IMG/VR virus record: IMGVR_UViG_3300009285_005727
Coordinates: 1-22,595 of that record
Direction: 5' to 3' (one strand)
Length of the DNA: 22,595 nt
Source of the DNA: a virus
Shown in pieces: positions 19,096 through 22,595 of this stretch. Under the pieces are notes generated by a model that had not been told where the DNA came from, did not search any database, and worked only from the letters and a program-made list of their open reading frames with translations. Both the position numbers and the translations under genes were made by a program. Position 1 is the first letter of the stretch. The number at the start of each line of letters is the position of its first letter.

Positions 19096-20568
19096 TTATG
19101 CCCAGAACTCGTTTATGCCCGCTGGAACACTCTGCTCATCCTTGAATTGTGCATCGATCCGTCGCATCCGCTGAATCGTCTGTTGCATCGTGTCAGGGAG
19201 GGCTGAAATATCACGTTCGGTGGAAGCCACGTGATGCTTGGGGAGTTGGGGCCAGATCATCACCACATAGCGGGTCCCATCTGGCAGTTCATCATTCCTC
19301 TTGAACACCATCGCCCGGTCGCGGTGTTGCTGATCGCGTCTGGGATCGGCCCAACGATAGGCTTTTAACTGTTGAATGGTCTTTGGAACGGCCGACTCAA
19401 CAAACCACAGTTGGTGGGCATAGAGCCAAGACTTTACTCGCTCAATCCCCGCATGTTGATCATTCTCTGCTGGGGTGCACACAATATTGTGTGGAGGCTG
19501 AGCGAGTTCGATCATCGGCTGCTTCTCGTTCTTGTTGATTGCCCACCTGGTTGGGTGAGAACCCGCAAGACGCTTCAGCGCCATGGCGTGCTGGGCGAAT
19601 GATTTCTCTCGCTCCAGATACTCGTCAACGCCAACCAGCCCATGCTCGGTTGAAACGAACTTTACCGCGCCAAATGGATGATCGGCTCCTGTGTCAATGC
19701 CAATAACAATGGGACGCCACGAGGCAATCTTGGGCCACTCTGGAATAAATCGTTTGACATCCTCGGGTGTGTGGAGGATTTGTGGAAGGAGCAAGTCCCC
19801 ATAGACCGCCCCCGCGAAGGTCACGAAGTCAGCCTCATACTCCTGCCGGAACATCGTGTCCGGCATCGTGGCCCGCTCGGCCTCGAGGGCAGCCTGAAAC
19901 TGGGGCTCTCTAAACTTGGGGTTCTCGATTGTTTTCGCTCGACAGGCCCAATAGCCCGGTTGGCTATCAAAGGCTGGTTTGTAGAGCTTGTCGTGGACCC
20001 AATCGTAGGATTTCGGGGAAGTCGTGAAAAAGGCCACTCCCTGACGATCGTAGAGGGAGGGCCGAATGACATCCCAGTGCGCCTCTGTCAATTCACAGAT
20101 CTCATCGATCCAGAGCCAATCGAGCCCCTGACCACGCCCCTGGTCAGGATCGTCAAGGGTCTGGAAGTGAATGAGCGCCCCATTCTTGAGTCGGAGATCG
20201 AGATACTCCGATGACCACTCCGCGACCCAATCTGGAGGGATGAGTTGCTGGAAGGCGGGAATGACGTAGCGATTGAGCTTGGGATTCGTCGGGGCACAGG
20301 CCCACCCGATTGAATTGGGAATGCAGGCTTCCTCCACCCCCGCGATGGAGCCAATTCTCGTCTTTCCCCACCGACGGCCCGCGATAATGGTGAGCCGGTC
20401 AAAGATGCGAACACCGGGCTTTTTGCAGGTTGGGCAGGTAAGGGTCTCTGTGGCCTTGAACTGAATCTGGCACGCTGGGCAAATTCGCCCGCGCCTGGCA
20501 TCAAGGAATGATGCCTGATCGGCCTGGGCATAGAGGGCCTCGTGGGGAAGTTGGATCCACTTTGCCAT
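19096..20568 (-). CDS. terL: Terminase large subunit (TerL)
   Basis: The product is 490 aa, the two-domain DNA packaging motor. An N-terminal Cys4 set (C30-x2-C33, C45-x2-C48) precedes the ATPase. The Walker A is G64-R-R-W-G-K-T70, preceded by L-T-I-I-A. The Walker B is L-D-W-L-W-I-D155-E156, with E156 as the likely catalytic carboxylate. F-T-T-S-P-K (181-186) is the coupling motif. RQEYEADFV (241-249) is the usual linker signature. The RNase H-like nuclease begins at about residue 287 with V-I-G-I-D292-T-G, whose Asp binds metal. The product packages DNA through the portal and cuts concatemers. The Cys4 set is an extra not found in most TerL proteins. The ATG overlaps the stop of the 57-aa gene (TAATG). 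Confidence 0.95.
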   Translation of the reverse strand: MAKWIQLPHEALYAQADQASFLDARRGRICPACQIQFKATETLTCPTCKKPGVRIFDRLTIIAGRRWGKTRIGSIAGVEEACIPNSIGWACAPTNPKLNRYVIPAFQQLIPPDWVAEWSSEYLDLRLKNGALIHFQTLDDPDQGRGQGLDWLWIDEICELTEAHWDVIRPSLYDRQGVAFFTTSPKSYDWVHDKLYKPAFDSQPGYWACRAKTIENPKFREPQFQAALEAERATMPDTMFRQEYEADFVTFAGAVYGDLLLPQILHTPEDVKRFIPEWPKIASWRPIVIGIDTGADHPFGAVKFVSTEHGLVGVDEYLEREKSFAQHAMALKRLAGSHPTRWAINKNEKQPMIELAQPPHNIVCTPAENDQHAGIERVKSWLYAHQLWFVESAVPKTIQQLKAYRWADPRRDQQHRDRAMVFKRNDELPDGTRYVVMIWPQLPKHHVASTERDISALPDTMQQTIQRMRRIDAQFKDEQSVPAGINEFWA

Positions 20569-20741
20569 TAGTGGCTGGCCTTACGCAGTCCCTTCAGAGC
20601 CTTGGCCGAACGCTTTGATTCGGTGGAGTCAACCTTTTCTGGGAGATCCCGCTGAGATCCATACTCCTTCTGCCACCGCTTCGCAATTTTTGGCTTGTTG
20701 GCATAGAGGAATCGCCGTTGAGCATCGCTCTTAAACGGCAT
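20568..20741 (-). CDS. Small basic MPFKSxAQRRF protein
   Basis: The product is 57 aa and starts MPFKSDAQRRFLYANKPKIA, then KRWQKEYGSQRDLPEKVDST and a Lys-rich C-terminus. Small phage proteins beginning M-P-F-K-S-x-A-Q-R-R-F/W-x-Y/F-A are very widespread, usually beside terminase or capsid genes; their function is not established as far as I know. The ATG at 20741 lies inside the end of the upstream gene (11-nt overlap), and the stop overlaps the terL start. The family match plus the overlaps on both sides make the gene secure although it is short. Confidence 0.8.
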   Translation of the reverse strand: MPFKSDAQRRFLYANKPKIAKRWQKEYGSQRDLPEKVDSTESKRSAKALKGLRKASH

Positions 20742-21408
20742 CGCCTACTACTTCTGTGTCAAAAATGGTCGCATCATCAGCGGCTGATCGTTCAAACGTC
20801 TTTGGACGCCCAACAACATTCCCCACCACAGATGGTTGACTTTCCCCAGTCGATTCGATTTTGAGGGCCAGAACGGTTTGGGGCGCGTCGCTCTCCACCT
20901 TCACCGCCTGATGTGACTTAAAGAGGCCCAATCCCTTGGCGGCCTCAATCGTCATCTGTTTGTCTTTCTTGTTCAGGTGGTGTTCGATGTTATCCACAAC
21001 CACATGGGAGAGTTCCTGTTCGAGGCGCTCCGCTGGGTTGTCAAACTTCAGCCACCCTTGCTTGGTGGCCTTCCAAATCATCGTGTTGAGCGTGGTCGGC
21101 TTGAGCCCGAGGAGGGGAGCGATCTCGATATTCTTCATGCCCTTGCTCCGGTAGAGGATCCACTGCGCGATATGGGCGCGGTGGGACCGGTCGTGGGCTA
21201 TGAGAGGAGGGAGTTCGTCTGCCTGGAGGGGCTTGGCCGCGAGAGCCGTGGAAGGCTCTTGTAGGCCAGCTTCGTCACGCTTTGGTCCAATTGGTCCAGG
21301 GAGGCCCGTCTTGGTCCTGCGGCGTGTACAAATGGTACATTGGCAGGTTTCTTTGTGAGTGTTGGGCCTTCGAGGCTGCGCTGGATTCGTTGGAATTGCT
21401 GGTGGCAA
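20731..21408 (-). CDS. Putative terminase small subunit (TerS)
   Basis: The product is 225 aa. After a Pro-rich start there is a small Cys cluster (C22-x1-C24-x2-C27) followed by T-R-R-R. Residues 80-120 (IAQWILYRSKGMKNIEIAPL, L-G-L-K-P-T-T-L-N-T-M-I-W) form a helix-turn-helix of the type that recognises the packaging start site. Residues 124-160 are helical (AERLEQELSHVVVDNIEHHL, MTIEAAKGLGLFKSHQ), matching the oligomerisation core of small terminases. The C-terminus is flexible and acidic, as expected for TerL binding. The gene precedes terL by one small gene. No ATG exists near the N-terminus: an in-frame TGA lies 6 nt above the TTG at 21408, so TTG is the only visible start. Confidence 0.7.
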   Translation of the reverse strand: MPPAIPTNPAQPRRPNTHKETCQCTICTRRRTKTGLPGPIGPKRDEAGLQEPSTALAAKPLQADELPPLIAHDRSHRAHIAQWILYRSKGMKNIEIAPLLGLKPTTLNTMIWKATKQGWLKFDNPAERLEQELSHVVVDNIEHHLNKKDKQMTIEAAKGLGLFKSHQAVKVESDAPQTVLALKIESTGESQPSVVGNVVGRPKTFERSAADDATIFDTEVVGDAV

Positions 21409-21547: not shown

Positions 21548-21853
21548 TTATGTAGGGGAATTGTCAAGAGGGTCCTCTGGATTTTTGTGCCATTTTCCAC
21601 CCTCTCTGACCCACAACTCGTCCTGTCTGGTGCCGTTTTGATAGCCTGAGAAGGTTGCCAAGAGGCGTTTCCTCCCAACTGGAGTGGCAATACGCTTGAT
21701 TTGGATGCACCGAACAGGCTCAGCACCCCGAAAGGCAATAATATCGTAGGGACCGTGGCTTCCAGCCGTGCGGAGGACCGTGTAACCTTGGAGTTCCAAC
21801 TCCTTTTTGGCGAGATATTCAAAGGCCCGTCCACGGGTGTAGTTGGTAGCCAT
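21548..21853 (-). CDS. Hjc-like Holliday junction resolvase (PD-(D/E)XK)
   Basis: The product is 101 aa. It reads R-G-R-A-F-E12-Y, then ELELQGYTVLRTAGSHGPYD with D37, and I-I-A-F-R-G followed by C-I-Q51-I-K53-R. The order E12 - G-S-H-G-P-x-D37 - Q-x-K53 is the catalytic set of the Hjc-type archaeal/phage resolvases, which cut four-way DNA junctions; the S-H-G-P block is characteristic. The length (101 aa) is near the minimal size of this fold. In a late operon it would remove branches from replicating DNA before packaging. The ATG lies 13 nt after the stop of the 40-aa membrane gene, with no clear ribosome binding site of its own, so coupling to that gene is possible. Confidence 0.85.
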   Translation of the reverse strand: MATNYTRGRAFEYLAKKELELQGYTVLRTAGSHGPYDIIAFRGAEPVRCIQIKRIATPVGRKRLLATFSGYQNGTRQDELWVREGGKWHKNPEDPLDNSPT

Positions 21854-22015: not shown

Positions 22016-22045
22016 AGTATAGCATGGCAGGCGCTGAACTGTCAA
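22016..22045 (-). promoter_or_regulatory. Sigma-70 promoter of the late operon
   Basis: On the minus strand TTGACA (22045-22040) is followed after 18 bp by TATACT (22021-22016), an exact -35 and a near-exact -10 box. Transcription should start at about 22009 and give a 20-nt leader to the AGGAGG site of the 40-aa gene. It is the only strong promoter seen on the minus strand upstream of the packaging genes. Confidence 0.75.
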
Positions 22046-22083: not shown

Positions 22084-22510
22084 TGACACGGCACATGCGT
22101 CCCTGGAAGTGCTTGAGCCAGTATGGGTTATGGGTTTCGGACTTTGCGGAGCCAAAACGATTTGACACGCTCGTAACCCGTTTGGGCTCAGTGGGTTAGG
22201 TGCTAAAGTGGGTTTCCGTGTCAAACCTGTATATAAAGAAGAAGTGACACGACACGGATAGGCCACCTTAGGGGTGGCCCTATTTCTCCGTAGTCGTTAG
22301 GGCTGACACGGTGGGTGACACGCTCGTAAATCGTTTAGAATCAGAGGGTTGCGTGGGTTTTTGTGGTAGCGTGTCAAATGGTCCTAAAAGTGACACGCTG
22401 AGAAGTCGTTTAGAATCAACAAGATAGCGATTCCCGTGTCAGGGCCGTTTTTTTGACACGGCATTTTGACACGCAAATCGAGGTAAAATGGGCTAACTCC
22501 TTTAGAATCA
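22084..22510. repeat. TGACACG heptamer array with second conserved element
   Basis: Eleven exact heptamers lie within 390 bp. TGACACG starts at 22084, 22163, 22245, 22304, 22316, 22391, 22454 and 22467; CGTGTCA starts at 22217, 22370 and 22435. Main units begin every 71-82 bp (22084, 22163, 22245, 22316, 22391, 22467). A second element, consensus CGTTTAGAATCA then GGGTTA, recurs at 22332, 22407 and 22501 (exact TTTAGAATCA) and in weaker form at 22179 and near 22113. No ORF on either strand looks coding here. Arrays of this kind are usually binding sites for a replication initiator, a partition protein or a regulator; which applies here is not shown. Confidence 0.8.
22261..22285 (+). terminator. 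Stem-loop with T-rich tail inside the array
   Basis: GGCCACC (22261-22267) and GGTGGCC (22273-22279) form a perfect 7-bp stem around a 5-nt loop. On the plus strand CTATTTCT follows, so it could be a modest intrinsic terminator for rightward RNA, or simply a structural element of the array. On the minus strand there is no T-run. Confidence 0.4.
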
Positions 22511-22575
22511 ACGGGTTATGGCGAAATGAGGGTTTTGAATAAATTTCTGGTGTAGGGCCCCCATCCCCGCCGGCA

Positions 22576-22590
22576 TGGCACGATTCTTGC
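22576..22590 (+). promoter_or_regulatory. Sigma-54-type -24/-12 promoter, pointing out of the window
   Basis: TGGCACG (22576-22582), four bases, then TTGC (22587-22590) exactly match the sigma-54 consensus TGGCACG-N4-TTGC, and the GG and GC dinucleotides are 10 bp apart as required. Transcription would start about 12 bp further right, beyond the edge, so the controlled gene cannot be seen. A 6-bp inverted repeat CCCCGC/GCGGGG overlaps it (22565-22570, 22589-22594). Confidence 0.55.
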
Positions 22591-22595
22591 GGGGG

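Follow-up and report, generated by a model that had tools for sequence, protein, structure and literature searches.

A cluster of short repeats between the record end of an uncultured bacterial virus and its late genes raises the question of which protein would bind there, and to what effect. The DNA analysed here (the window, 22,595 bp) is a complete IMG/VR record whose end lies just beyond this cluster. It contains 16 exact copies of the heptamer TGACACG/CGTGTCA, 11 of which fall within 390 bp (Table 1), with forward copies starting at 22084, 22163, 22245, 22304, 22316, 22391, 22454 and 22467, and reverse copies at 22217, 22370 and 22435. Dinucleotide shuffles gave 3.57 ± 1.88 copies per window (maximum 9), or about 0.06 per 390 bp, and the five copies outside the array (5335, 5730, 12081, 13140 and 19189) represent chance level. 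These counts agree with the original prediction, which had reported 8 forward and 3 reverse heptamers against about 0.05 expected, and chance frequency elsewhere. Furthermore, when all heptamers were counted without bias in windows of 450 bp, no other cluster in the record was as dense as this array; one first-order Markov randomised sequence, used for comparison, reached at most 4 copies.

The array is intergenic: on one side the record ends, and on the other, downstream of the array, is a late operon whose first genes are Mrr-like, TerS-like (HTH) and TerL. It thus presents the clustering of short repeats in a single intergenic region that is typical of iteron origins.

Relatives with and without the array

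Searching with TerL retrieved 34 related viral contigs; no match above 60% was found in the phage collection, and the genome collection gave distant matches only, none of them close. Arrays of TGTGTCA/TGACACA lie about 2 kb upstream of TerL in L010, L017, L021 and L025, the L017 array also using TGTGTCG. In L013/G005, the dyad core is that of the window but the heptamer is TGGGTCA/TGACCCA. The more distant G014 and G015, which are probably one phage, have one array sequence in common, again of TGTGTCA/TGACACA and upstream of TerS/TerL. Many relatives (L011, L012, L016, L020, L022, L027, L030 and more) lack this array. The array-bearing ones cluster on the TerL tree, where the distribution needs two to three changes.

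The original prediction had looked to relatives for a decision, absence of the heptamers from the syntenic site counting against a binding array. The outcome is divided, since many relatives have no array, whereas those that have one keep it at the syntenic site with its anatomy. GC skew, which the same prediction proposed to run, shows no switch at the arrays of the relatives; this counts against an origin, though skew there follows gene direction. We also observed in L020 (7440-7490), at the place that the array occupies in other relatives, 4-5 copies of an AAGTCGG/CCCGACTTGG repeat, possibly another specificity.

Anatomy of the array

The TTTAGAATCA element is present in three copies (at about 22334, 22409 and 22501) and one degenerate copy. 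A spacing of main units by 71-82 bp, as originally described, holds for a chosen subset of forward heptamers (79, 82, 71, 75 and 76 bp) and fails for the array overall, the plan of which is more aptly stated as dyad units surrounded by heptamers in direct and inverted orientation. In the direction of the terminase, members with an array carry a dyad of about 27 bp with the consensus GTAAGTCGTTGATTCTAAAGG-ACTTAC, which a heptamer usually follows within a few bases. They also have in common a GC hairpin, a core (TATATA or TATAGGG) flanked by inverted heptamers, and a downstream consensus sigma70 promoter.

Table 1. Features of the array and of the adjoining late region in the window
Feature	Coordinates	Strand	Description
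Heptamer array	22084..22473	.	11 exact TGACACG/CGTGTCA, 8 forward and 3 reverse
Dyad unit 1	22492..22521	-	ATAACCCGTTGATTCTAAAGGAGTTAG; exact GTTGATTCTAAAGG core common to G001, G002, G003, G005 and G015
Dyad unit 2	22400..22428	-	GCTATCTTGTTGATTCTAAACGACTTCTC, then heptamer 22391-22397
Dyad unit 3	22324..22353	-	CGCAACCCTCTGATTCTAAACGATTTACG, then heptamer 22316-22322
Dyad unit 4, degenerate	22172..22199	-	CTAACCCACTGAGCCCAAACGGGTTACG, then heptamer 22163-22169
TATATA core between inverted heptamers	22217..22251	.	CGTGTCAAACCTGTATATAAAGAAGAAGTGACACG
GC-rich imperfect hairpin beside core	22250..22296	.	-14.6 kcal/mol, z -5.5; terminator-like scan match
AT-rich and G-rich element with half of GGGG(N)CCCC palindrome	22525..22595	.	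In family with or without array; record ends inside palindrome
Consensus sigma70 promoter	22016..22045	-	TTGACA-18-TATACT; just downstream of array; kept in relatives
Mrr/PDDEXK-like small protein	21548..21853	-	PF04471, E 6e-5; first recognisable late gene
TerS-like HTH protein, small terminase candidate	20731..21408	-	
Large terminase (TerL)	19096..20568	-	Query used to find relatives

Counterparts of the TATATA core occur in both arrays of G001, in L017, L010, L025 and G005, and in Rhizobium phage RHph_N65, where CCCCTATATAGGGG stands between inverted copies of GCGGAGA. Judged by sequence, the core provides the AT-rich element found among the repeats of iteron origins, in the window as in the relatives. 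The GC hairpin, strong in the window and in three of the five relatives tested, is a possible ssi/primase site, cruciform or terminator.

Of 18 gaps from a reverse heptamer to the next forward one, which form outward pairs, 14 measure 41-45 or 52-56 bp, i.e. four and five helical turns, where 1.5 would be expected, a contrast whose significance is optimistic because the bins were set after the data had been seen.

Two other readings of these parts were discarded. An IHF site (AATCAAC-N-GTTA) fits some units only, and a T7-like promoter (GACTCACTATAGGGG in G015, CACTATAGGGAG in the second G001 array) reduces to TATAGGG as the only portion common to the arrays.

Two arrays with one heptamer in each genome

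G001 carries two TGTGTCA arrays (6.0-6.4 and 57.0-57.4 kb), and G005 two TGGGTCA arrays (42.1-42.5 and 69.9-70.2 kb). In both genomes, the second array stands at the head of a replication module of the AAA_25/PDDEXK/PolA type, in which it is followed by dCMP deaminase or AAA_25, a PDDEXK exonuclease, a Sak4-like protein and PolA. The complete circular podovirus ctVRi840 has seven copies of GCGGAAA abutting TerL and seven beside repA, and its gene order (repA, PDDEXK, AAA, polymerase) is that of the G001 and G005 module. Hence, the heptamer is equal at both loci in these three genomes and differs from one genome to another; the G002 contig comes without its replication side, and G015 has the terminase-side array only. 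Agreement within a genome combined with change between genomes implies a phage-encoded binder that co-evolves with its sites. The earlier expectation that the array binds a protein is well supported at the sequence level.

On the gene content of these genomes, we observed that G001 encodes (41389-44241) a family A DNA polymerase with an N-terminal uracil-DNA glycosylase-like domain, the two parts of which match separate ORFs in G015. The early genes of G001 and G005 include a COOH-NH2 ligase, ATP-grasp-like and RlaP-like proteins, an RNA ligase and a polynucleotide kinase, a set that points to roles in RNA repair and in peptide ligation.

The composite, arm-core-arm look of the modules could also befit a site for recombination, partition or transposition (att-like arm and core sites, parS or transposase end repeats), and the parS site of P1 likewise combines heptamers with other boxes. 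However, there are two arrays per genome, and each array has several cores, for which reason a tyrosine-recombinase att site was rejected; the ORF lists inspected show no transposase or integrase beside the arrays. Moreover, no ParA/ParB-like family of the kind that accompanies a P1-type parS was found among the 62 early proteins of G001 and G005 or the six window proteins scanned. We regard this reading as highly improbable.

Late promoter and terminase neighbourhood

The sigma70 promoter next to the array is presumed to be the late promoter. It is one of two near-perfect sigma70 promoters (21567-21538 and 22045-22016, minus strand; 12/12 and 11/12) that precede successive late genes, and in relatives tiny membrane-like ORFs of about 30-45 codons follow the first promoter.

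Standing directly upstream of this kept promoter, the array would suit a transcriptional role equally well. In such a scheme, a phage regulator would bind the heptamers cooperatively and, by controlling the sigma70 promoter or the TATATA core, turn the late operon on or off, the second array serving the replication operon likewise. In G001 and G005, each of the two arrays stands at the head of an operon, with its TATA core pointing the same way as the downstream genes, and one heptamer at two operons is what a two-operon regulon would look like. Yet the same consensus promoter is found in relatives that have no array, heptamers flank the core on both sides, and the arrays of other phages adjoin RepA-like helicase genes rather than regulator genes. 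Furthermore, the 62 early proteins of G001 and G005 include no known DNA-binding regulator family (for PHROG, among the matches listed, 25 of 37 families). An operator array is the main rival reading, a tentative one that we consider somewhat unlikely.

On the opposite side of the array, the GGGG(N)CCCC palindrome, the G-rich tract and AGAAAATTTTAAA occur once per genome, at the same place upstream of TerL, array present or absent (palindrome found there in L009, L010, L011, L012, L016, L017, L020-L024, L027, L028 and L030). A sigma54-like -24/-12 match (TGGCAYG-N4-TTGC) adjoins the palindrome, at 22576-22590 in the window and at the same place in L017 and L021.

Alternatively, the small terminase might recognise array and palindrome together as a cos/pac region. 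In every relative that has it, the array indeed directly precedes TerS/TerL; it abuts TerL in ctVRi840 and adjoins the kept palindrome, and the contigs of L009, L011 and L028 begin 423-429 bp from the palindrome, perhaps at a genome end, perhaps by coincidence. Against packaging, the replication module has a second array built from the same heptamer, the palindrome is kept where the array is missing, and the only array of RHph_N65 adjoins the helicase gene, a long way from the terminase. We find a packaging site very unlikely. TerS was also dismissed as the heptamer binder, since it is encoded by all relatives, with or without the array.

Arrays are associated with a RepA-type helicase

The AAA_25 protein matches the RSF1010 RepA helicase (1g8y, E 1e-15), and a RepA-type AAA_25 gene is present in the array-bearing G001, G005, G015 and ctVRi840. 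The proteins of G001, G005 and G015 form a common subtype (52% and 31-36% identity; range 31-52%), to which those of the array-less G006, G007 and G009 match at 22-28%. PolA shows the opposite kinship, G006 and G007 being 54-56% identical to G001, and G015 only 28-37%; no PolA match was found for G009. With three array-bearing against three array-less lineages, which are small numbers, the AAA_25 subtype thus appears to track the array and not phage phylogeny. A predicted model of the helicase (three sequences) was poor, its mean pLDDT of 54 being too low to show a DNA-binding tail.

Not every array has the helicase next to it: the AAA_25 gene lies 3.1 kb from an array in G001 and about 10 kb from one in G015, and the window array adjoins the terminase, not a helicase gene. 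Repeats do adjoin the helicase gene at the second arrays of G005 and ctVRi840 and in RHph_N65, Javan406, L095, L096 and L099. Among other phages with RepA-like AAA_25, a heptamer array lies directly after the gene at 8 of 22 loci (P≤0.05; L091 (G005), L095, L096, L099, L102, Vadim, RHph_N65 and Javan406), giving a Fisher P of 1.7e-6 for which the effective number of loci is smaller because L095/L096 and L099/mu1/6 are related. These arrays are often accompanied by a GC hairpin. In ctVRi840 a further array adjoins repA, and in mu1/6 one lies where the helicase gene ends. RHph_N65 repeats the plan of the window, with 12 copies of GCGGAGA and a unit taagtcattgaaatcattgatg that precedes a heptamer. 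No heptamer array was found at the mapped origin of Lactococcus phage sk1, and the ACGAGGA clusters of Koji and Eleri were discounted as they overlap annotated genes.

A putative platform for the replication initiator

We favour the reading, at somewhat better than even confidence, that an initiator of RepA type uses the window array as an iteron-type platform, and that the site is probably a second replication origin, or a relocated one, where early and late genes meet. We read it as a docking platform because relatives keep the layout with words of their own and three of them repeat their word beside replication genes, and as an iteron platform because in SaPIs the Rep helicase recognises iterons that directly follow its own gene, as has been proposed for SCCmec (PMC7581432). 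As had been noticed originally, no binder is apparent in the window; this 22.6-kb fragment without a replication module encodes no candidate initiator, and we infer its binder from the relatives. Among the three kinds of binder first envisaged, the initiator is best supported, through two-locus concordance, RepA subtype and adjacency; a repressor acting at the late promoter comes out weaker, and a partition protein is unsupported.

The binder would be the phage's own initiator, most likely the hexameric helicase of RepA-like (AAA_25) type or else its loading partner. Its subunits would bind heptamers and adjacent dyads, with the spacing of four and five turns placing them on one helix face, and would wrap the DNA or bend it. 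They could then open the TATATA core, which lies between inverted heptamers, and load the helicase there, while primase may start at the hairpin. The array would act as an origin between early and late genes, of which relatives have a second copy beside the replication module.

A more speculative extension, which we think unlikely, is that one initiator-binding array marks both the replication and the packaging/late modules. The same protein would then start replication and mark or time late transcription or packaging, and paired arrays would form a replication-to-packaging switch in which the word changes in step.

Comparison with known systems

In our literature searches we came across no account of this array or of what appears to be a recurring origin-like architecture in RepA-helicase phages, i.e. 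heptamers and dyads at helical-turn spacing, a TATATA core, a hairpin and a phage-specific word repeated at the terminase. If so, origins and initiator specificity would be predictable from sequence across many phages, and a single protein linking replication to late expression or packaging becomes testable.

The origins of SaPI Rep and SCCmec Cch2 resemble this architecture in that a mobile-element helicase gene is accompanied by adjacent short repeats and by inverted repeats able to form hairpins, the repeats being recognised by the helicase tail (PMC7581432). In contrast, the helicase is here a RepA/RecA-fold AAA_25 protein and of neither the SaPI Rep nor the Cch type, and heptamers are combined with a 27-bp dyad and have a copy at the terminase.

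With oriV of RSF1010 (IncQ), which is served by the RepA helicase, the RepC initiator and the RepB primase, the arrays have in common a RepA-type hexameric helicase, repeats and ssi-like hairpins. They differ from it by heptamers at four- or five-turn spacing instead of tandem 20-bp iterons and by their location in a phage genome, and Pfam/PHROG scans of the relatives' early genes found no RepC or RepB homologue of the IncQ system.

SPP1 has two origin-like sites per genome, oriL and oriR, with common boxes beside AT-rich DNA, and replicates with gp38 and a DnaB-type helicase. Its paired sites with common boxes are similar to those described here, where the helicase is of RepA type and the origin is putative.

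Finally, the array that follows the RepA-like helicase/primase gene of RHph_N65 (MN988536), unannotated in its record, differs from that of the window in being a single array of another word, GCGGAGA, located at the helicase gene. It nevertheless shares with the window its cluster of heptamers, a TATATA/GGGG core between inverted heptamers and a taagtcattgaaatcattg composite unit.
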